37,400 nt of DNA from Acidimicrobiales bacterium. Its GTDB lineage: Bacteria; Actinomycetota; Acidimicrobiia; Acidimicrobiales; SZUA-35. Location of the stretch: NCBI GenBank assembly GCA_020629695.1, contig JAHDCV010000013.1, positions 30,378 to 67,777 on the forward strand, given 5' to 3'. Position 1 is the first letter of the stretch, and each line of letters begins with the position of its first letter. Shown in pieces: positions 5,056 to 18,966 of the stretch. The notes beneath the pieces were generated by a model that had not been told where the DNA came from, did no database searches, and saw nothing but the letters and a program-made list of their open reading frames with translations. The position numbers and the translations under genes are program-made.

Positions 5056-8000
5056 GCTCGCACCTCCGAGGGGGCGTCGTGGCGCCGCCCGACCAGCACA
5101 CCGATCGCGCCGAGGGCGACGACGAGCAACTGCACGACACGCCGACCCGAGGGGGTCCGATACCGCAGCGTCTCGGCTTCGGGCCCGGGCACCATCGTCA
5201 CGCCGTCGAAGGCGGGCTCCGGCGTACCGAACTCCGCGGTCCAGTTCTCGTCGAACGTCGAACCGATGACCATCGCGACCTCGCCTTCGACGGCTTCGAC
5301 CTCCGATGTCGGAGACCAGACGCCGGGGGCATCGGGCAGCACATCGAGACGGCGGGCGCCGGCCCGACCGAGCTCGAGGTCGAGCTGGTCGGTCAACTCG
5401 ACCCGGTTGATCTCCTCCGCCCGATCCAGCGAGTACGCCGGTCCCACCGACGCGGTGTTGGCGTACACCGTGAAGCTCGGCGTCCCGGGGACGAGCTCCA
5501 GGTCGAGCTGGCGCTCGAGCGCACCGGCGAGCACCGGATCGATCGGCCAGACCGGGCCGTCGTAGGGCACGGGAGCGAGCTGTTCGACGACGACGATGGC
5601 ATCGACCCCGAGCGGTGCGAGCAGCCGACCGAGTCGGACCGTGTCGGAGGCGGCGGCGAGGTCGAGGCGATCACCGACGACCGACGTCGCGCCGAGTGGC
5701 GCGGGCGTCCAGCGCGACTCGATGCGTTGTTCACCATCGGTCACGGCGAACGAGTGTCCGGCCGCGGAGGCGACGGCGTCGACGGGAAGCACCTCGGGCG
5801 CCCCCAACCAGAGCACCCGTGCCGCACCCACATCGCCGGTGGTCTCGTCGACGATCAGTTGGGTGAACTCGCTGAAGGAGAGCTCCGGCACGTCGTAGCG
5901 ACCGTCGAGCGACTGGCGGAGTCCGGTGATCGTGACGGCCAGGAAGGCGAGCGTCGCGACCAGCGTCAGCACCGACTGCGGCCGAAGCGACCAGTCGAGG
6001 GTGGCGTCCATCTCGGCGGCCCGGACCCCCGCCGCGATGACGAGGGCGAGCGCCGCACCGGCCAACGCGAGCCACAGCTCGATCGGGGGCAACGCCACAC
6101 CCGACCAACCGCGGAGTTCGACCCACCCGACGACGAAGGCGGCGAGGGCGACGGACCAGCCCCGAGCGGCGACGTCGAATCGGGCGCCACGGGCGATGAC
6201 GAGCCCGACGCCCGCTGCGGCCGTCGTGCCGAGACCGAGCCAGCTCGGCGAGAACCGCCCGGGAGCGAATCGGAGCAGATCGAGCATCGAGTCGGCCTGG
6301 GCCTCGGGCGAACCGCTGCCGACCAGCCAGGTCCAGCCACCGTCGGACAACAGGGCTGCGCTCCAGGGGAACCACAACACGAAACAGATGGCGACCACGA
6401 CGGGCACGGCCACCACGAGCGCTCCCGCCCGTTCGGGGCGGGCCGCCAACACCGAACCGGCGAGCATCGCCACGACGGCGACCACAACGACCGGCAGCGT
6501 CGCCGGCACGAGCGCACCGACGACGGCGACGCCGAGCCCCAGCCGCACGAGCCGACCGGCGAGCGGACGCGGCAGCACGGCAGGTCCGGCGTTGCCGAAG
6601 TGATCGCCATACGGCGCGACACCTTCCACCAGGAAGATCGAGGCGAGCAGTGCGGGGGCCGCGGCGTGGAGAACGAGGGCATCCCACTGGCCGGCTGCGA
6701 CGAGCGCGGGCACGAGAGGGTTGGCCGCCGTCGCGAACGCCGCGACCATCGCGGCGCGTTGGCTGCCGATCGGCCGGGCGGCCCGATAGGCCACCACGGG
6801 GGCGGCGAACACGGGGGCGAGCAGCACCAGCGTGTCGCCGAGGCCACCGGTCCAGCCGACGGCGAACCTGAGCACACCGAGAACGAGTTGACCCGGAGGT
6901 GACGCCTCGGGACCGCCGAGCCCGATGCTGCGCCAACCGCTCCACCACTCCCGGATGAGGGCGAACCCACCACGCAACTCGGGGATCCGACCGAAGGGCT
7001 CGACACCGCCGGTCCACAGGCCCCGCACACTGGCGCCGACGAGCAGGAACGTGAACAGCCCGAGCACGGTCGCGTCGCGCAGCGCCGCCGCCTCACCTCC
7101 GCCGAACGACGCCCGGACAGACCCGACGAGCGAGGCGAGCCGCTCCTGCCTCGCATCGATGCGGTCCTGGATGAACCCGGTGATCCGGGCCGAACCGCCC
7201 GACTGCAGTGCACGGACCTCGGCGACGTCGGCGCGCCGGCGTTCGGTGAGTGCCGCTCGTCGAGCCGACGTCTCCCGCCAGCGCGTCAGGTTCCAGCCCA
7301 GGGCGCCCAGCACGTCGCTCGCATGGCCACGCCGACCGGCGAGCACGGCGTAGAGCGCTTCGAGCAGCACCAACAACACGGCGAGCGGCAGGGTCACCGC
7401 GAGCGCCCGGCCGTGGGTCGCGACCAACATCGAACGGAGCCGATGCCGGGTCTGCAGGGCGCGCCGTTCGGTGATGCCACGCTCCCCCAGCGCCTCGAGG
7501 TGGGCGGCGCGAGCGTTCGGCACGACCAACACCCGAGCACCCAGCGCCTGTGCCCGCCAACAGATGTCGAGGTCCTCGCCCAGCGCGGTGATCGCCGGAT
7601 CGAACCCGCCGAGTTCGTCGAACAGGTCGCGGCGGATCAGCTGAACACCGCCGGGGGCCACGAACACGTCGCGCACGGCGTCGTACTGCTGCTGGTCGAA
7701 CTCGCCGCGTTGCACCCGGTCGACGAGCACACCGAATCGATCGGCACCCATGCCGAGCTGGGTGAGACGGCGGGGATCCCCCCACGAGACCAGCTTCGGA
7801 CCGACGATCGCCGCGTTCGAGCGGAACACCTCCTCGACCAGCGCCGACACGCATCCGGCGTCCAGCCGGACGTCGTCGTGGCAGAAGAGGAAGAAGTCGT
7901 TGCCACTCACGAGTTCGGAGGCGAGGTTCGCCGCGGCGCTGAACCCGGGGTCGCCCGTGACCCGATGCACGAAGGCGTCGGGATCGACCGAGGCCACCCG

Positions 8001-8177
8001 GTCGGCGAGCGGAACCGCGCTGCCCGCGTCGATCACGAGGAGCGAGAGATCGGGGTATTCCTGGGTCGCGATGGATCGCAGCGACTCCTCGAACCAGTCG
8101 CCGGGATCGCGACTGACGACCACAGCGACGACGGCCGGAGCGGCGGCGTCCTCCGGAGTTGGGGTCGAGGTCGTCAC
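5052..8177 (-). CDS. Large membrane glycosyltransferase, GT2 N-terminal domain
   Basis: 1041 residues. The GT2 (GT-A fold) domain spans about 15-240, with an HDD metal/nucleotide-binding motif at 100-102 and GEDLDICWRAQ near 200-210 (acceptor-side ED). From about residue 245 the protein becomes hydrophobic, with roughly a dozen membrane segments. A soluble region near 755-1005 precedes a final hydrophobic segment ahead of the basic C-terminus. The layout suggests transfer of a sugar to a lipid or exported acceptor at the membrane; donor and acceptor cannot be read from sequence. The start is a GTG at 8177, with a TAGCCT hexamer (8187-8192) 9 bases upstream. It is the first gene of a three-gene operon and is divergent from the GDP-rhamnose genes. 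Confidence 0.88.
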   Translation of the reverse strand: MTTSTPTPEDAAAPAVVAVVVSRDPGDWFEESLRSIATQEYPDLSLLVIDAGSAVPLADRVASVDPDAFVHRVTGDPGFSAAANLASELVSGNDFFLFCHDDVRLDAGCVSALVEEVFRSNAAIVGPKLVSWGDPRRLTQLGMGADRFGVLVDRVQRGEFDQQQYDAVRDVFVAPGGVQLIRRDLFDELGGFDPAITALGEDLDICWRAQALGARVLVVPNARAAHLEALGERGITERRALQTRHRLRSMLVATHGRALAVTLPLAVLLVLLEALYAVLAGRRGHASDVLGALGWNLTRWRETSARRAALTERRRADVAEVRALQSGGSARITGFIQDRIDARQERLASLVGSVRASFGGGEAAALRDATVLGLFTFLLVGASVRGLWTGGVEPFGRIPELRGGFALIREWWSGWRSIGLGGPEASPPGQLVLGVLRFAVGWTGGLGDTLVLLAPVFAAPVVAYRAARPIGSQRAAMVAAFATAANPLVPALVAAGQWDALVLHAAAPALLASIFLVEGVAPYGDHFGNAGPAVLPRPLAGRLVRLGLGVAVVGALVPATLPVVVVAVVAMLAGSVLAARPERAGALVVAVPVVVAICFVLWFPWSAALLSDGGWTWLVGSGSPEAQADSMLDLLRFAPGRFSPSWLGLGTTAAAGVGLVIARGARFDVAARGWSVALAAFVVGWVELRGWSGVALPPIELWLALAGAALALVIAAGVRAAEMDATLDWSLRPQSVLTLVATLAFLAVTITGLRQSLDGRYDVPELSFSEFTQLIVDETTGDVGAARVLWLGAPEVLPVDAVASAAGHSFAVTDGEQRIESRWTPAPLGATSVVGDRLDLAAASDTVRLGRLLAPLGVDAIVVVEQLAPVPYDGPVWPIDPVLAGALERQLDLELVPGTPSFTVYANTASVGPAYSLDRAEEINRVELTDQLDLELGRAGARRLDVLPDAPGVWSPTSEVEAVEGEVAMVIGSTFDENWTAEFGTPEPAFDGVTMVPGPEAETLRYRTPSGRRVVQLLVVALGAIGVLVGRRHDAPSEVRA

Positions 8178-8249
8178 GAGGCCAGCAGGCTAGTGGTCCG
8201 GGACGCGCGAACGAGGTAGCCGAGGCACCTTCCGAGCCCGACCGCTCAC

Positions 8250-8255
8250 TAGGCT
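8250..8255 (+). promoter_or_regulatory. -10-like hexamer upstream of rmd
   Basis: TAGGCT is placed 7 bases before an ATG at 8263, the same geometry as at ftsH. Transcription would then start at the small open frame 8263-8295 rather than at rmd itself. No convincing -35 is visible. Confidence 0.4.
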
Positions 8256-8262
8256 CGCCGCC

Positions 8263-8291
8263 ATGTGTTCCCGCTGGACGTCGGTGCGTCG

Positions 8292-8295
<4 letters not shown>
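8263..8295 (+). CDS. Candidate leaderless 10-residue upstream ORF coupled to rmd
   Basis: The frame encodes MCSRWTSVRR. Its TGA (8293-8295) overlaps the rmd ATG (8292-8294) as ATGA. The ATG follows a TAGGCT hexamer by 7 bases, as for leaderless mRNAs. rmd has no clear ribosome binding site of its own, so reinitiation from this frame could deliver ribosomes to it. Alternatively rmd starts at the in-frame GTG 8265 and this frame is fortuitous. Confidence 0.3.
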
Positions 8296-10263
<1,968 letters not shown>

Positions 10264-10265
10264 CC

Positions 10266-11201
10266 ATGACGGGCAGCGGCTCCGTCGCCGTCATCTGCGG
10301 CGGCGTGGGAGCCGCTCGGCTCCTGCGCGGTCTCGCACGGCACGTCGAGCCGGATCAGCTGATCGCGATCGCGAACGTCGGCGACGACATGGAGCTCCAC
10401 GGGCTCCACATCTCCCCCGACCTCGACACGATCGTCTACACCGTCGCCGAGGCCGTGTCGGCCGAGCGCGGCTGGGGCCTGGAGGGCGAGAGCTGGCAGG
10501 CGATGACCATGCTCGGCCGCTACGGCGGGGAGGACTGGTTCTCCCTCGGCGACCGCGACCTCGGCACCCACCTCTATCGGACGCAACGACTGCGGGAGGG
10601 TGCCTCCCTCGCTGACGTCACCGGCGCCATCGCCCGGTCCTGGGGCATCGAGTTCGGTCTCCTGCCCGTGACCGACGATCGACTCCGGACCATGGTGACC
10701 ACCGTCGATCACGGGGAGATCACCTTCCAGGAGTACTTCGTCGGCCACCAGCACTCGGTGCCGGTCACGTCGGTCCGGTTCGACGGGGCCGACGCAGCCA
10801 GGCCGGCACCCGGCGTGCTGACCGCCCTGGCCGACGCCGAGCGGATCATCGTGGCTCCATCGAACCCGGTCGTGTCGATCGATCCGGTGCTCGCCGTACC
10901 CGGCGTTCGTGACGCGCTCCGGTCGAGACGGGACGACGTCGTCGCGGTGTCACCCATCATCGGTGGCAAGGCGCTGAAGGGCCCGGCCGACCGGCTGCTC
11001 GTCGAGCTCGGCCGCGAGGCCTCGGCCACCGGCGTGGCCGAGTGGTACACCGACGAGGTCGGCACGCTCGTGATCGACACCGTGGACGCAGCGCGGGCGG
11101 AGGCCATCGCTTCGGTCGGGGTGCGGCCCGTCGTGGCCCCGACGATCATGTCGGAGCCGGGTGTGCTGGATCAGCTCTGCGAGCTACTCCTCAGCGTCTG
11201 A
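10266..11201 (+). CDS. cofD: F420 synthesis 2-phospho-L-lactate/phosphoenolpyruvate transferase
   Basis: 311 residues of the CofD/FbiA family. The enzyme transfers a lactyl- or enolpyruvyl-phosphate unit from a guanosine-diphospho donor to the deazaflavin Fo, giving F420-0 or dehydro-F420-0; actinobacterial FbiA uses the enolpyruvyl form. Signatures are GGVGAARLLRGL near the N-terminus, NVGDDMELHG, SPDLDT, SNPVVSIDPVLAV and SPIIGGKALKGPA. The ATG at 10266 is 2 bases after the gmd stop, so translation is probably coupled to the GDP-rhamnose genes, which is functionally unexpected. The end overlaps the convergent His-rich gene by 18 bases. cofE lies nearby on the same strand beyond that gene. 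The donor-synthesis gene cofC and the Fo synthase are not in the window. Confidence 0.95.
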   Translation: MTGSGSVAVICGGVGAARLLRGLARHVEPDQLIAIANVGDDMELHGLHISPDLDTIVYTVAEAVSAERGWGLEGESWQAMTMLGRYGGEDWFSLGDRDLGTHLYRTQRLREGASLADVTGAIARSWGIEFGLLPVTDDRLRTMVTTVDHGEITFQEYFVGHQHSVPVTSVRFDGADAARPAPGVLTALADAERIIVAPSNPVVSIDPVLAVPGVRDALRSRRDDVVAVSPIIGGKALKGPADRLLVELGREASATGVAEWYTDEVGTLVIDTVDAARAEAIASVGVRPVVAPTIMSEPGVLDQLCELLLSV

Positions 11202-11948
11202 GCCACTCTCGGCGTCCGCGTCGGAGTCGACCTCGTCGTCCGTCCCGGTGATCGCATCCGGGTTCAGCTCGGGTGCGAGCTCGGTTCCGGCGTCGAGCGG
11301 GGAGACCGACTGGGCCTGCAGCGGCCGGGGGATCTCGGAGTCGGGGGCGTCGGCGGGCATCAGCGCGACCGTCAGGGCACCGAGGTCGCCGGGGAACTTG
11401 AACTCGGCGAGGTTCTCGGTGATCACCGTCGTCGGCTCGTCGTCGGTGAGGTTCTCCCAATACGCCAGGCGCAGCTCGGCCTCTTCACCGTCACAACCGT
11501 CGGCCTCGGCCATCGGCACGGCACCGAACTCGGACGGGCCGGGGGTGTAGCTGTCGTCGGTCAGCTCGCCCTGCGTGGCCTCGAGGAAGGCCTCCATCGT
11601 GGCGTTGTTGCCCGACACGCTCGTGTTGAACGGGTGGATGTGGATCAGGCCGTCACCGTGGGTGTGGATGCCCTTCGGATCCCGGTCGTCGGTGGCGAAC
11701 GGCATGAGGGTGCCGCAGTTCGCGAAGCCGTAGGCGATGTGCCAGTGATCGCCGCCGCCGTTGCCGGTCAACGACTGGGCTTCGGGCGCCACGCCGATGT
11801 TCGACTCGCGGTTCACCGCGAGCACACCGACGGCGATGGCGCCGACGACGATGACGGCGATGACGGCCGGCCAGAACCAGCGGTCACCACCGGACTGGAG
11901 GTTCGGTGCGCCGGAGGACGCTCGTCGGAGGTTCGGTTCATCAGCCAC
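11184..11948 (-). CDS. Unrecognised membrane-anchored protein with paired HxH motifs
   Basis: 254 residues from GTG 11948. There is a short basic/Trp-containing N-terminus and one membrane segment (about 27-45). The extracytoplasmic region carries three His-X-His pairs: H68/H70 (in GGDHWHIAYG), H95/H97 (in GIHTHGDG) and H103/H105 (in LIHIHPF), plus Cys78 and Cys152. The C-terminal tail is Asp/Glu-rich. The clustered HxH pairs suggest a metal site (copper, zinc or iron), but I know of no named domain with this pattern. A TACGCT hexamer (11957-11962) lies 8 bases before the start, so the mRNA may be leaderless. It sits between cofD and cofE in opposite orientation; whether it has anything to do with F420 is unknown. 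Confidence 0.8.
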   Translation of the reverse strand: MADEPNLRRASSGAPNLQSGGDRWFWPAVIAVIVVGAIAVGVLAVNRESNIGVAPEAQSLTGNGGGDHWHIAYGFANCGTLMPFATDDRDPKGIHTHGDGLIHIHPFNTSVSGNNATMEAFLEATQGELTDDSYTPGPSEFGAVPMAEADGCDGEEAELRLAYWENLTDDEPTTVITENLAEFKFPGDLGALTVALMPADAPDSEIPRPLQAQSVSPLDAGTELAPELNPDAITGTDDEVDSDADAESGSDAEE

Positions 11949-12060: not shown

Positions 12061-12768
12061 GTGACCCTGTCGATCATGCCCGTACCCGACGTTCCCGAGA
12101 TCCGACCGGGCGACGACCTCGCCGGGCTGCTCATCACCGCCGCGGAGGCGGCGACCGGCATCGAGCACCACGACATCTGGGTCGTGTCGCAGAAGGTCGT
12201 GTCGAAAGCCGAGGGTCGGCTCGTGAAGGTCGATCCGGACGACCCGCTCAGCCACAAGCCCCTCGTCCTCCGCGAGGCCAAGCGGGTGCTGCGCCGACGA
12301 GGCGAGCTCATCATCACCGAGACCCACCACGGCTACATCTGTGCCAACTCCGGTATCGATCGCTCGAACGTCGCCCCCGACGTCGCCGCCCTCCTTCCCG
12401 AGGACTCCGATCGTTCCGCTCGACGGATCCGTGACGCCGTGAAGGGCCGGGTCGGGGTGGAGATCGCCGTCATCGTGGCCGACACCTTCGGTCGACCGTG
12501 GCGACGCGGCATCACCGACATCGCGCTCGGCTGTGCCGGCATCATCCCGGTGACCGACCTGCGCGGCACCGAGGACGCCCTCGGGCGTGAGCTGCACGTC
12601 ACCGAGGTGTGCGTGGCGGACGAGCTGTGCGGTGCTGCCGAGCTCGTGCGGGGCAAGGCCGACGGCATCGCCCTCGCCACGATCCGGGGCGGCAACGAGT
12701 CCTGGTTCGGTGAAGGGTCCATCGTCGGCGACGTCGTCCGCCCGCACAGCGACGACCTCTTCCGATGA
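12061..12768 (+). CDS. cofE: Coenzyme F420:L-glutamate ligase (stand-alone CofE domain)
   Basis: 235 residues. The enzyme adds gamma-linked L-glutamates to F420-0 using GTP. Motifs are VSQKVVSKAEGR (42-53), HGYICANSGID (90-100), ADTFGRPWR (140-148) and VADELCGAAELVRGKADG near 185-202. The start is the GTG at 12061, because the following MPVPDVPEIRPGDDL matches the usual family N-terminus; an ATG at 12076 is an alternative. Mycobacterial FbiB fuses this domain to a C-terminal nitroreductase-like domain that reduces dehydro-F420-0. That domain is absent here: the protein ends about 25 residues after the conserved RGGNESWF region. The helicase gene follows 25 bases downstream. Confidence 0.95.
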   Translation: MTLSIMPVPDVPEIRPGDDLAGLLITAAEAATGIEHHDIWVVSQKVVSKAEGRLVKVDPDDPLSHKPLVLREAKRVLRRRGELIITETHHGYICANSGIDRSNVAPDVAALLPEDSDRSARRIRDAVKGRVGVEIAVIVADTFGRPWRRGITDIALGCAGIIPVTDLRGTEDALGRELHVTEVCVADELCGAAELVRGKADGIALATIRGGNESWFGEGSIVGDVVRPHSDDLFR

Positions 12769-16671: not shown

Positions 16672-17685
16672 CTACTTGATGTGCTTCGGGATCTCGGGCA
16701 GGTTCATGTTCGATGCCGTGGCGCCCGGGGTGACCCACTGATCCTCGCCCACGACGACCGTGGTGAGGTCGCAACCGGCACCGACGGTCGAGCCTCTGGC
16801 GACGATCACGTCGGTGAGGGTGCAACCGTGTTCGACCGTGGCGCCGGCCTGGATCATGGTGCGGGTCAACGAACAACCGGCGCCGACCGTGGCGCCGGCT
16901 TCGACGATCGTGTCCACGAGGGTGGCGTCGGCGGCCACGGTGGCGGCGTCGCTCACCGCGGGTTCCTCACCCCGCACCCCGTTCGTGTAGTCGAGGGCGA
17001 CCTCGAAATAGGCGTCCGGCTTGCCGGCATCGACCCAGTACCCGTCGAGCTGCTTCGCGAACAGCACTCCTTCGGCGACCATCGCCGGGAACGTCTCACG
17101 TTCGATGGAGACCTTCCGCCCCGCTTCGACCCGGGCCAAGGCCGCGGGTTCGAGGACGTAGGTGCCCGCATTGATCCAGTTCGTCGGGGCCTCGTCCTTC
17201 GGCGGCTTCTCGATGAAGGCCTCGACGCGGCCGTCGGCGTCGATCGGCACGACGCCGAAGCGCGACGGGTCGTCGACCGGCGAGAGGGCGATCGTGCCCT
17301 CCGCGCCCGCGCTGCGGTGGAGCTCCAACAGCGCCGTGAGGTCCTGATCGGTGAGGATGTCGCCGTTGACTGCGATCACGGTCTCGTTCTCGAAGCCCGC
17401 CTCGCGAGCGGCGAACGCGATGGCTCCGGCGGTGTCGAGCGGCTCGGGCTCGACGGCGTAGTGCATCTCGACCCCGGCGATCGTGCCATCGGGGTAGGCA
17501 TCGGAGAACTGGTCGGGTCGGTATCCCAGCGCCAGCACCGCTTCGGTGACGCCGTGGCGGGCCAGACCGGCCACGACGCGCTCGATCATCGGCCGGCCGA
17601 CGACCGGAAGCATCTGCTTCGGGGTGGTGAGGGTGAGCGGACGCAGACGGGTTCCGAACCCGCCGACGAGAATCACGGCCTTCAT
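16672..17685 (-). CDS. manB: Mannose-1-phosphate guanylyltransferase (sugar-1-P nucleotidyltransferase)
   Basis: 337 residues. The nucleotidyltransferase domain carries the signature GGFGTRLRPLT (8-18), PKQMLP (22-27), NGD (107-109, metal-binding Asp), FIEKP (157-161) and WVDAGKP (217-223). The C-terminal third (about 245-320) has hexapeptide-like repeats of a left-handed beta-helix. Actinobacterial proteins of this form near F420 and glycosyltransferase genes are usually annotated as GDP-mannose pyrophosphorylases, and the GDP-rhamnose genes here need that product. Specificity for another sugar phosphate cannot be excluded. The ATG at 17685 has a GGAGA element 8 bases upstream. It is the last gene of the minus-strand glycan operon, 33 bases after a GT4 gene. 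Confidence 0.85.
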   Translation of the reverse strand: MKAVILVGGFGTRLRPLTLTTPKQMLPVVGRPMIERVVAGLARHGVTEAVLALGYRPDQFSDAYPDGTIAGVEMHYAVEPEPLDTAGAIAFAAREAGFENETVIAVNGDILTDQDLTALLELHRSAGAEGTIALSPVDDPSRFGVVPIDADGRVEAFIEKPPKDEAPTNWINAGTYVLEPAALARVEAGRKVSIERETFPAMVAEGVLFAKQLDGYWVDAGKPDAYFEVALDYTNGVRGEEPAVSDAATVAADATLVDTIVEAGATVGAGCSLTRTMIQAGATVEHGCTLTDVIVARGSTVGAGCDLTTVVVGEDQWVTPGATASNMNLPEIPKHIK

Positions 17686-17718: not shown

Positions 17719-18966
17719 TCATCCATCGGCGGATGACCCTGCGAGTGTGAGCTGCTGCAAGAGATCCTCGTAGGCGGCGGCCTGCGCGGCCGGGGTGAGC
17801 AACGTCTCGACGTGTCGCCGACCGTTCGCACCGAGCCGATGCCTCCGGGACGCATCGTCGAGGAGCTCGCCGATCGCGGCACAGAACGGCTCGACCTCGG
17901 CCGGCTCCACCACGATGCCCGCATCGGCATCGGCGACCGTGACCGCGACCTCCGACCCCGCGTCGATGGAGGCCACGACCGGACGACCTGCGGCCAGGAT
18001 GCCGTAGAGCTTCGACGGCGTCGACGACTTGGCCAACCCGGGCTTGAGCAGGATCAGGTGCACATCGGCGGAGCCGAGGGTGTCGGAGACGGCTTCGCGG
18101 GGCTGGAAGTCGGCGACCACGACGTTGTCGCGCTCGGCCGCCCACGCATCCACTTCGGCCCGCGCCGCTCCTTCACCGTTGATCACGAACACCACATCGG
18201 GGCGGTGCACGAACCGGTCCGCCGCGGCTCGCACCAGCTCGAACGACTGCGACAGACCCACGTTGCCCGAGTACATCACGACCAGGCGGTCGCCCAGGCC
18301 ATGGCGACGCCGGTACTCCGTCGCCCGCTCGACCGGCTGCACTCGATCGGTGTCGACGAAGTTGTGGATCTCCACGACCTTGTCGGACTGATCGGCCGGG
18401 AGCTTGGCCCGGACGTTGGCCGCCTGATCCCGACTCAACACGCTGACGGCATCGGCGCTGCGGTACAGGCGCCGCTCGTAGCGGGAGGCCGCCGTGATGA
18501 CCCGGGGATTCGTGAGGGCACCGAGGTCGACGGCGACATCGGGAAAGATGTCCTGGACGTTGAACACCCAGGGCACACCGAAGCGCCGGGCCGCGAGTGC
18601 GGCGGCCTCCCCCAGGAAGATCGGTGGCGACATGCCGATGACGGCGTCGGGCCGGGGACCACTCACCGCCGCCGCCGCGACGAGCCCGGTCAGGCCGAGG
18701 AAGCCGACGGCTCTGGCCGGCACCGAGGTCTTGTCGGTCGGGAAGGGCCACACCCGGACGATCCGGCCGTGTGCGGCGTGCTCGACCCGCCACGGACGCC
18801 CCCGCCACTCCGGCTCGACGTCGTGCGCGTGGTACCAGGGGAGGCTGGTGACGACGTCGACCCGGTGTCCCCGCTCGGCGAGGGCGTGGGTCAGACGCGT
18901 CATCACCTCACCCGTCGCCGCGTGCAGATCCGGTTCGAAATGAGGGCAGAGCAGCAGCAGCTTCAT
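17719..18966 (-). CDS. GT4 glycosyltransferase, WbuB-like
   Basis: 415 residues with a GT-B fold. The N-terminus MKLLLLCPHFEPDLHAATGE resembles WbuB/colanic-acid-type transferases. A central VMYSGNVGLSQSFE motif (phosphate-binding loop between the two Rossmann domains) and the C-terminal STPSKLYGILAAGRPVVAS stretch (nucleotide-sugar contact) support GT4. Acceptor and sugar are unknown; UDP-xylose, UDP-glucuronate, GDP-rhamnose or GDP-mannose are candidates from the neighbourhood. The ATG at 18966 overlaps the stop of the preceding GT4 gene (ATGA), so the two are translationally coupled. Confidence 0.92.
   Translation of the reverse strand: MKLLLLCPHFEPDLHAATGEVMTRLTHALAERGHRVDVVTSLPWYHAHDVEPEWRGRPWRVEHAAHGRIVRVWPFPTDKTSVPARAVGFLGLTGLVAAAAVSGPRPDAVIGMSPPIFLGEAAALAARRFGVPWVFNVQDIFPDVAVDLGALTNPRVITAASRYERRLYRSADAVSVLSRDQAANVRAKLPADQSDKVVEIHNFVDTDRVQPVERATEYRRRHGLGDRLVVMYSGNVGLSQSFELVRAAADRFVHRPDVVFVINGEGAARAEVDAWAAERDNVVVADFQPREAVSDTLGSADVHLILLKPGLAKSSTPSKLYGILAAGRPVVASIDAGSEVAVTVADADAGIVVEPAEVEPFCAAIGELLDDASRRHRLGANGRRHVETLLTPAAQAAAYEDLLQQLTLAGSSADG

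Follow-up and report, generated by a model that had tools for sequence, protein, structure and literature searches.

The window, by which we mean the whole 37,400-nt stretch of DNA analyzed here, carries a gene, HP (P0001), that sits between the F420 genes cofD and cofE and is read from the strand opposite to both (Table 1). The encoded protein begins with a short tail, followed by one hydrophobic helix, a domain bearing histidines and cysteines, and an acidic C-terminal tail; judged by eye, the N-terminal tail looks strongly basic in most relatives. The core sequence is GIHTHGDGLIHIHPF. A preliminary description of this locus had reported the open reading frame, three HxH pairs (68/70, 95/97, and 103/105), the core, and two cysteines, all of which we confirmed from the translation. 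It had also described HP as membrane-anchored, in agreement with the hydropathy peak listed in Table 1, and the domain that follows this helix is probably outside. The splitting of cofD and cofE on the opposite strand, with an 18-base overlap into cofD, was likewise as described and is lineage-specific: in the window's family, f1, HP has cofE on its upstream side and cofD on its downstream side in 14 of the 17 members.

Table 1. Positions of HP, its notable residues, and neighboring genes in the window, and of three HP genes on other contigs (last three rows). Residue counts refer to the alignment of 76 HP members or, where stated, to 36 rows of the HTHD family described in the text.
Feature	Position	Strand	Basis and remarks
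Sugar dehydratase-like gene, called gmd-like from sequence	9280..10263	(+)	ORF; upstream of cofD; relatives near HP in many loci
cofD	10266..11201	(+)	Pfam PF01933 (CofD match 10284-11081); convergent to HP, 18-base overlap; in-frame ATG start chosen
HP (P0001)	11184..11948	(-)	ORF and translation; 254 aa; GTG start at 11948, stop ending 11184
HP C152	11493..11495	(-)	Present in 76/76
HP H103-I-H105, third HxH pair	11634..11642	(-)	Position 105 is Glu in 4/76 HP and 34/36 HTHD
HP H95-T-H97, second HxH pair	11658..11666	(-)	H95 in 64/76, H97 in 65/76
HP C78	11715..11717	(-)	Present in 76/76
HP H68-W-H70, first HxH pair	11739..11747	(-)	H68 in 69/76, H70 in 63/76
HP transmembrane helix, residues 27-45	11814..11870	(-)	Hydropathy peak; helix 25-50 in structure model
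cofE	12076..12768	(+)	Pfam PF01996 (F420_ligase match 12091-12690); divergent, 127 bases from HP start; in-frame ATG start chosen
Mannose-1-phosphate guanylyltransferase-like NTP transferase	16672..17685	(-)	Pfam PF00483; NF052502 below cut-off
WcaI-like glycosyltransferase	17719..18966	(-)	Best model below its cut-off
L196 HP	7982-8653		f1; copper/heavy-metal export cluster; MAG contig
L198 HP	7978-8682		f1; copper/heavy-metal export cluster; MAG contig
L200 HP	8065-8712		f1; copper/heavy-metal export cluster; MAG contig

Compared to a relative from the same genus (L001, 81% identical), HP has a Ka/Ks of 0.22, and third codon positions take 84 of the 134 differences, indicating that HP is a gene under purifying selection. 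None of 100,000 protein shuffles reproduced the spacing of its three HxH pairs.

No family had been recognized for HP, and our scans of Pfam, NCBIfam, and the PDB bear this out. P0001 matched no Pfam or NCBIfam family at E up to 10, the HP profile retrieved nothing relevant from the PDB, and 23 HP members searched against Pfam matched no copper-binding family (CopC, HMA, and others). A few Pfam models (GRDB, collagen, and others) were hit weakly by single members or by two, which we judged to be chance. P0001 found no match on plasmids by tblastn. Literature searches gave no publication on this family among the matches listed, and the main text of PMC8498797 contains no word beginning with Acidimicrobi.

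Used alone, P0001 had matches in 20 of 296 genomes sampled from the phylum, counting the one it comes from. The HP profile (A1, built from 23 members; E ≤ 0.001) matched 368 of 397 genomes sampled from the order, although some of these matches are fragments or cover only a short N-terminal part. In f1 it matched 22 of 39 genomes, 18 of them strongly. HP is nearly universal in the order and less so in f1. The earlier suggestion of a new protein family stands in that the family is unnamed; it has to be widened in that HP is no orphan, given this spread and its place in a wider superfamily. The genome that contains the window gave a second match (C25, E 3e-4), which we rejected as an additional HP copy, as it covers only model positions 3-62, the tail and helix. 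In genus g6, G608 and G624 have full HP matches and G458 has a short or weak match only (C19, 8169-8348); short or weak matches only were also obtained in G102, G434, G502, and G521, perhaps from truncated genes.

We aligned 76 HP members, one per genome: the window, 19 earlier regions, 40 regions spread over families and taken from the listed, better-scoring profile matches, and 16 from f1 (16 of the 17 other strong members; G674 was left out). L001 and L003 were dropped, since they lie on the same contigs as L186 and L183. C78 and C152 are both found in every member and probably form a disulfide. P106 and G113 are present in 75 of the 76 and A116 in 74, and beside the histidines D99 is present in 64 and G100 in 71. 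The six-histidine set is complete in 59 members, and four carry glutamate at position 105 (HHHHHE). At least three of the six histidines are lost in 13 members, among which six keep none and three keep one; these members keep both cysteines, and most sit in the same locus as the others. The members that have lost three to six histidines are L029, L038-L042, L166, L167, L173, L177, L178, L181, and L182.

We built a tree of HP without the six histidine columns, by a quick method that left 25 of 73 inner branches open. On this tree, the state of the histidine site requires a minimum of five changes, two of them forced by well-supported branches; the four Glu105 rows group with the main site-losing set, and two more losses fall in other parts of the tree. 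Members mostly retain or lose the histidines jointly, largely as one dispensable unit on a scaffold that is retained. The existence of the 13 members that lack at least three histidines yet have the cysteines suggests that the core role of HP may not need metal, and the exchange of histidine for glutamate at the single position 105 is the pattern expected of a metal ligand. As for poor conservation of the histidines, named in the preliminary description as evidence against a metal site, it applies only in part, to the 13 of 76 members that have lost at least three of the six. Histidine should not hold metal near pH 2, and one member without any of the six (L039) may, we presume, come from an extreme acidophile. 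Optima near pH 2 are given for Acidimicrobium ferrooxidans and three other species in PMC5962788. The natural site-less variants among the HP members could separate a scaffold role of HP from a metal role.

A search of 198 phylum genomes for the pattern W-L-H-T-H-D gave eight hits, four of which (L101-L104) encode an unnamed family that we label HTHD and four of which do not. HTHD was matched in 25 of 296 phylum genomes and in 24 plasmid records, the plasmid hosts being Bacillota, Betaproteobacteria, Gemmatimonadota, and Actinomycetota. Some of the plasmid copies carry no annotation; others are labeled hypothetical proteins (for example, MYCCH_RS27810, ACHL_RS22675, and LQK89_RS16970) or form the end of a protein annotated as SkfF-like. 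The one HTHD member that we scanned had no Pfam, NCBIfam, or PDB match beyond DPPIV_rep (Pfam, E 0.14), which we judged to be chance. On viral contigs, exact searches with two patterns for HP and one for HTHD gave no match, and of 16 candidate stretches not one encodes an HTHD relative.

When aligned with hhalign, the HP and HTHD profiles scored 98.0% over 112 columns, and when the profiles were trimmed to the part after the last histidine motif, these C-terminal halves scored 96.3% over 65 columns. Two sets of 20 column shuffles did not exceed 0.7% and 1.01%, and reversing a profile gave 0.17%; HP members without the site reached only 68% against the HTHD profile. Judged from these profile comparisons, HP and HTHD are homologous over the whole domain and share a common ancestry. 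By this comparison, the HTHD domain corresponds to that of HP all the way from its first HxH through its final strand and has the same putative ligands in the order HxH...HxH...H, and many HTHD proteins resemble HP, by eye, in having a membrane segment or a lipoprotein-like start. Across 36 HTHD rows (10 from plasmids), histidine occupies the counterparts of H68, H70, H95, H97, and H103 in 33, 34, 35, 35, and 35 rows, respectively. Unlike HP, HTHD has an L-H-T-H-D type motif and, in nearly all rows, glutamate at position 105 (Table 1); because glutamate is rare at this position in HP and the window has histidine there, we regard HP as a sister family and not as a member of HTHD. In an Anoxybacillus plasmid (L136, 3420-5456), the HTHD domain ends an SkfF-like membrane protein, and a Caballeronia gene (L139, 4194-5438) encodes apparently two tandem HTHD-like domains, with a pair of GT4 glycosyltransferase genes coming after it.

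The three f1 members not found at cofD-cofE (L196, L198, and L200) form one clade and lie in the export clusters noted in Table 1; their genomes contain no other full-length HP match. For the P-type ATPases of L196 and L198, the best NCBI model is the copper type, over its cut-off, and that of L200 exceeds the cadmium-type cut-off and has an ArsR-like gene nearby. The L196 cluster further includes MerR- and merB-like genes and a CsoR/RicR-like repressor, whose RicR match is below cut-off. A CopC-CopD fusion neighbors HP in L198, as detected by Pfam, and in L196, as detected by BLAST. All three loci have F510_1955-like proteins beside HP; the F510_1955 family glycosylhydrolase (NF045728, matched below the NCBI cut-off in L198) is a protein distinct from HP and also neighbors the HTHD gene L138. 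The other 73 of the 76 HP loci showed no metal company except for a merA-like hit in L028, which we took for a general flavin disulfide reductase.

For HTHD on plasmids, we took 21 of the 24 records (leaving out H3, H20, and H23), 17 of which are annotated, and counted by eye any metal transporter, metal enzyme, or CopC within 5 kb, excluding regulators alone. Such genes are present at 10 of the 17 annotated loci, several of which are near relatives: all ten are among the 11 loci from Actinomycetota, and the six from other hosts have none. On six of the same plasmids, 2 of 30 ten-kb control windows contained metal genes. H2 and H4 have DUF305, and H4 also has an ArsR/SmtB regulator. Metal genes occur at 2 of 20 chromosomal HTHD loci and at none of the 20 loci of further HP copies (paralogues), and a cluster count of chromosomal HTHD neighbors gave shared unscanned genes in related genomes with no clear theme. 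HP/HTHD is a testable new candidate component of metal resistance clusters, beside merAB, copper/cadmium ATPases, and F510_1955.

Two AlphaFold2 runs using four sequences yielded weak models (mean pLDDT 51.4 in the first run; 62.0 with pTM 0.62 for the domain alone in the second), too weak for metal placement. Foldseek returned nothing at E ≤ 0.001 for either HP model, the best E-values being 0.19 to staphylokinase for the first and 0.4 to transcobalamin for the second. With VIA-align 2, the first 14 rows for the second model were cobalamin carriers (transcobalamin, haptocorrin, and intrinsic factor; Z 5.2-6.4). For the first model, the putative metal-binding protein 3u7z ranked highest (Z 6.2, with an rmsd of 2.9 over 90 residues), and these carriers came next; across both models the carriers span Z 4.7-6.4. 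At Z values under 8, such a similarity may reflect no more than a shared arrangement. We conclude, with low confidence, that the HP domain is likely beta-grasp-like and nearest to the transcobalamin beta domain.

CopC and other periplasmic copper proteins have an extracytoplasmic metal site with histidines. The fold of CopC (PF04234) is a beta-sandwich, whereas HP is predicted to be beta-grasp-like and has no sequence match to it. Cobalamin carriers are described as part of the SLBB superfamily, which also includes polysaccharide export proteins (PMC1796856). HP may resemble this superfamily, the nearest solved structures of its two models being cobalamin carriers and 3u7z; our Pfam and PDB scans gave no sequence match to it, and the word "histidine" is absent from the main text of PMC1796856.

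We consider it fairly probable that HP is an extracytoplasmic metal-site domain with three HxH elements, likely for a transition metal that it sequesters or passes on. The invariant cysteines, the joint retention or loss of the histidines, the homology to HTHD, the three members in metal clusters, and the metal genes near HTHD on actinobacterial plasmids argue for this reading. Against it count the 13 members lacking at least three histidines and the rarity of metal neighbors on chromosomes (3/76 HP, 2/20 HTHD, and 0/20 paralogue loci), and also that the three HP members in metal clusters are a single clade on MAG contigs and that the six plasmid loci outside Actinomycetota have no metal genes. 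The metal site called likely in the preliminary description gains support as a predicted site, through the joint loss of histidines, the His/Glu exchange, its sharing with HTHD, and the copper/heavy-metal clusters.

For topology, disulfide, metal binding, metal identity, and role alike, we infer the following arrangement. HP would be a single-pass membrane protein whose outside part is one beta-grasp-like domain tied by the C78-C152 disulfide. The three HxH elements would form one metal site, and the metal would most likely be a transition metal, with copper as the first candidate, followed by zinc or a soft metal. On the membrane's outer face, within the surface-polysaccharide layer, HP would hold this metal to sequester it or pass it on, and the F420 genes would be bystanders.

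The polysaccharide setting is seen from gene order, with the neighbors of HP named by BLAST to reference genes from relatives and the window. Outside f1 and f20, a family of another class, the NTP transferase gene comes immediately after HP, in the same orientation, in 54 of 56 loci, and a glycan-type gene lies within 3 kb on the same strand in all 56. The fullest locus (L026) reads LCP, UDP-sugar dehydrogenase, epimerase, two GT4 glycosyltransferases, WcaI-like glycosyltransferase, HP, NTP transferase, and epimerase, and this glycan operon, HP included, faces cofE-cofD. The window has the same glycan genes from 16672 onward, with HP instead placed between cofD and cofE; the 33-base gap between its WcaI-like glycosyltransferase and NTP transferase (17685) corresponds to the HP site in many relatives.

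Such neighbors, directly 3′ or close by in nearly all of these loci, would also suit an SLBB-like protein that binds carbohydrate or helps to assemble the surface polysaccharide; its histidines would then serve to bind sugar or to shape the fold, and a metal, if present, would be structural. The persistence of members without histidines fits this alternative, as do the nearest solved folds, the transcobalamin beta domains, which PMC1796856 treats as a clade of the SLBB superfamily, a superfamily that polysaccharide export proteins also belong to. It leaves the joint histidine loss, the His/Glu exchange, and the copper/heavy-metal clusters unexplained, however, and we think it unlikely, if well worth keeping in mind.

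A bolder form of the metal-site reading takes in this setting. HP and HTHD may together make up an undescribed extracytoplasmic beta-grasp metal superfamily in at least four phyla, in which the fold of the cobalamin carriers is reused for a bare metal ion by way of HxH/HxH/Hx(H/E). HP would then be a core part of the order's polysaccharide operon and link glycan assembly to copper/zinc handling, with the site lost more than once and the scaffold kept. We offer this extension tentatively and regard it as possible, with somewhat more doubt than belief. Our scans of Pfam, NCBIfam, and the PDB gave no match for this domain, which spans several phyla and almost all genomes sampled from the order, and naming it would provide a label for many hypothetical proteins.

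Further HP copies are fused to FKBP (L264 and L269), cyclophilin (L267 and L276), or SecDF_P1_head (L268), which could point to HP as a helper of protein folding or secretion in the envelope. HP itself has no such partner domain, and a named partner was found in 5 of 10 scanned among the 20 further copies; we consider this role improbable. Several of the fused copies have lipoprotein-like starts by eye.

The conservation of D99 and G100 next to the histidines would be consistent with a catalytic metal center, as in an extracytoplasmic hydrolase or oxidase. Given that HP matches no enzyme family and no fold significantly, and that the site has been lost repeatedly while HP was retained, we regard a catalytic role as decidedly improbable.

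Outside f1 and f20, cofE or cofD lies within 5 kb of HP in 46 of 56 loci, and in all 60 loci where cof genes are near, HP is on the opposite strand. Among the 17 f1 genomes lacking an HP match, we examined 12: cofE is kept in 10, and in seven, cofD and cofE are on the same strand with 173-288 bases between their Pfam edges, compared to 1009 bases in the window. As f1 genomes without HP retain the cof genes, HP is dispensable for keeping them. Three f20 genomes have HP and the cof genes on different contigs, and in two of these (L033 and L036), HP follows a threonine ammonia-lyase gene.

We consider it very improbable that HP contributes to making or using F420, for instance as a cofactor-binding protein or an anchor for CofE: against its nearness to cofD or cofE in those 46 loci and its position between them in f1 stand the constant use of the other strand, the HP-less genomes that keep cofE or close up cofD-cofE, the separate contigs in f20, the three f1 copies in metal clusters, and the predicted extracellular location of the domain. 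We also rejected HP as an F420 biosynthesis protein, given its opposite strand, the HP-less genomes with cofD-cofE intact, and the relocated copies. The preliminary description had proposed checking whether HP accompanies F420 genes elsewhere. This company is frequent, but with HP on the opposite strand and dispensable the link is positional, not functional, and the placement looks like an accident of gene order. In one genome (G468, C16, 67757-68622), the Pfam edges of cofD and cofE are 864 bases apart with no HP match between them, and this space may hold a diverged, broken, or different gene.
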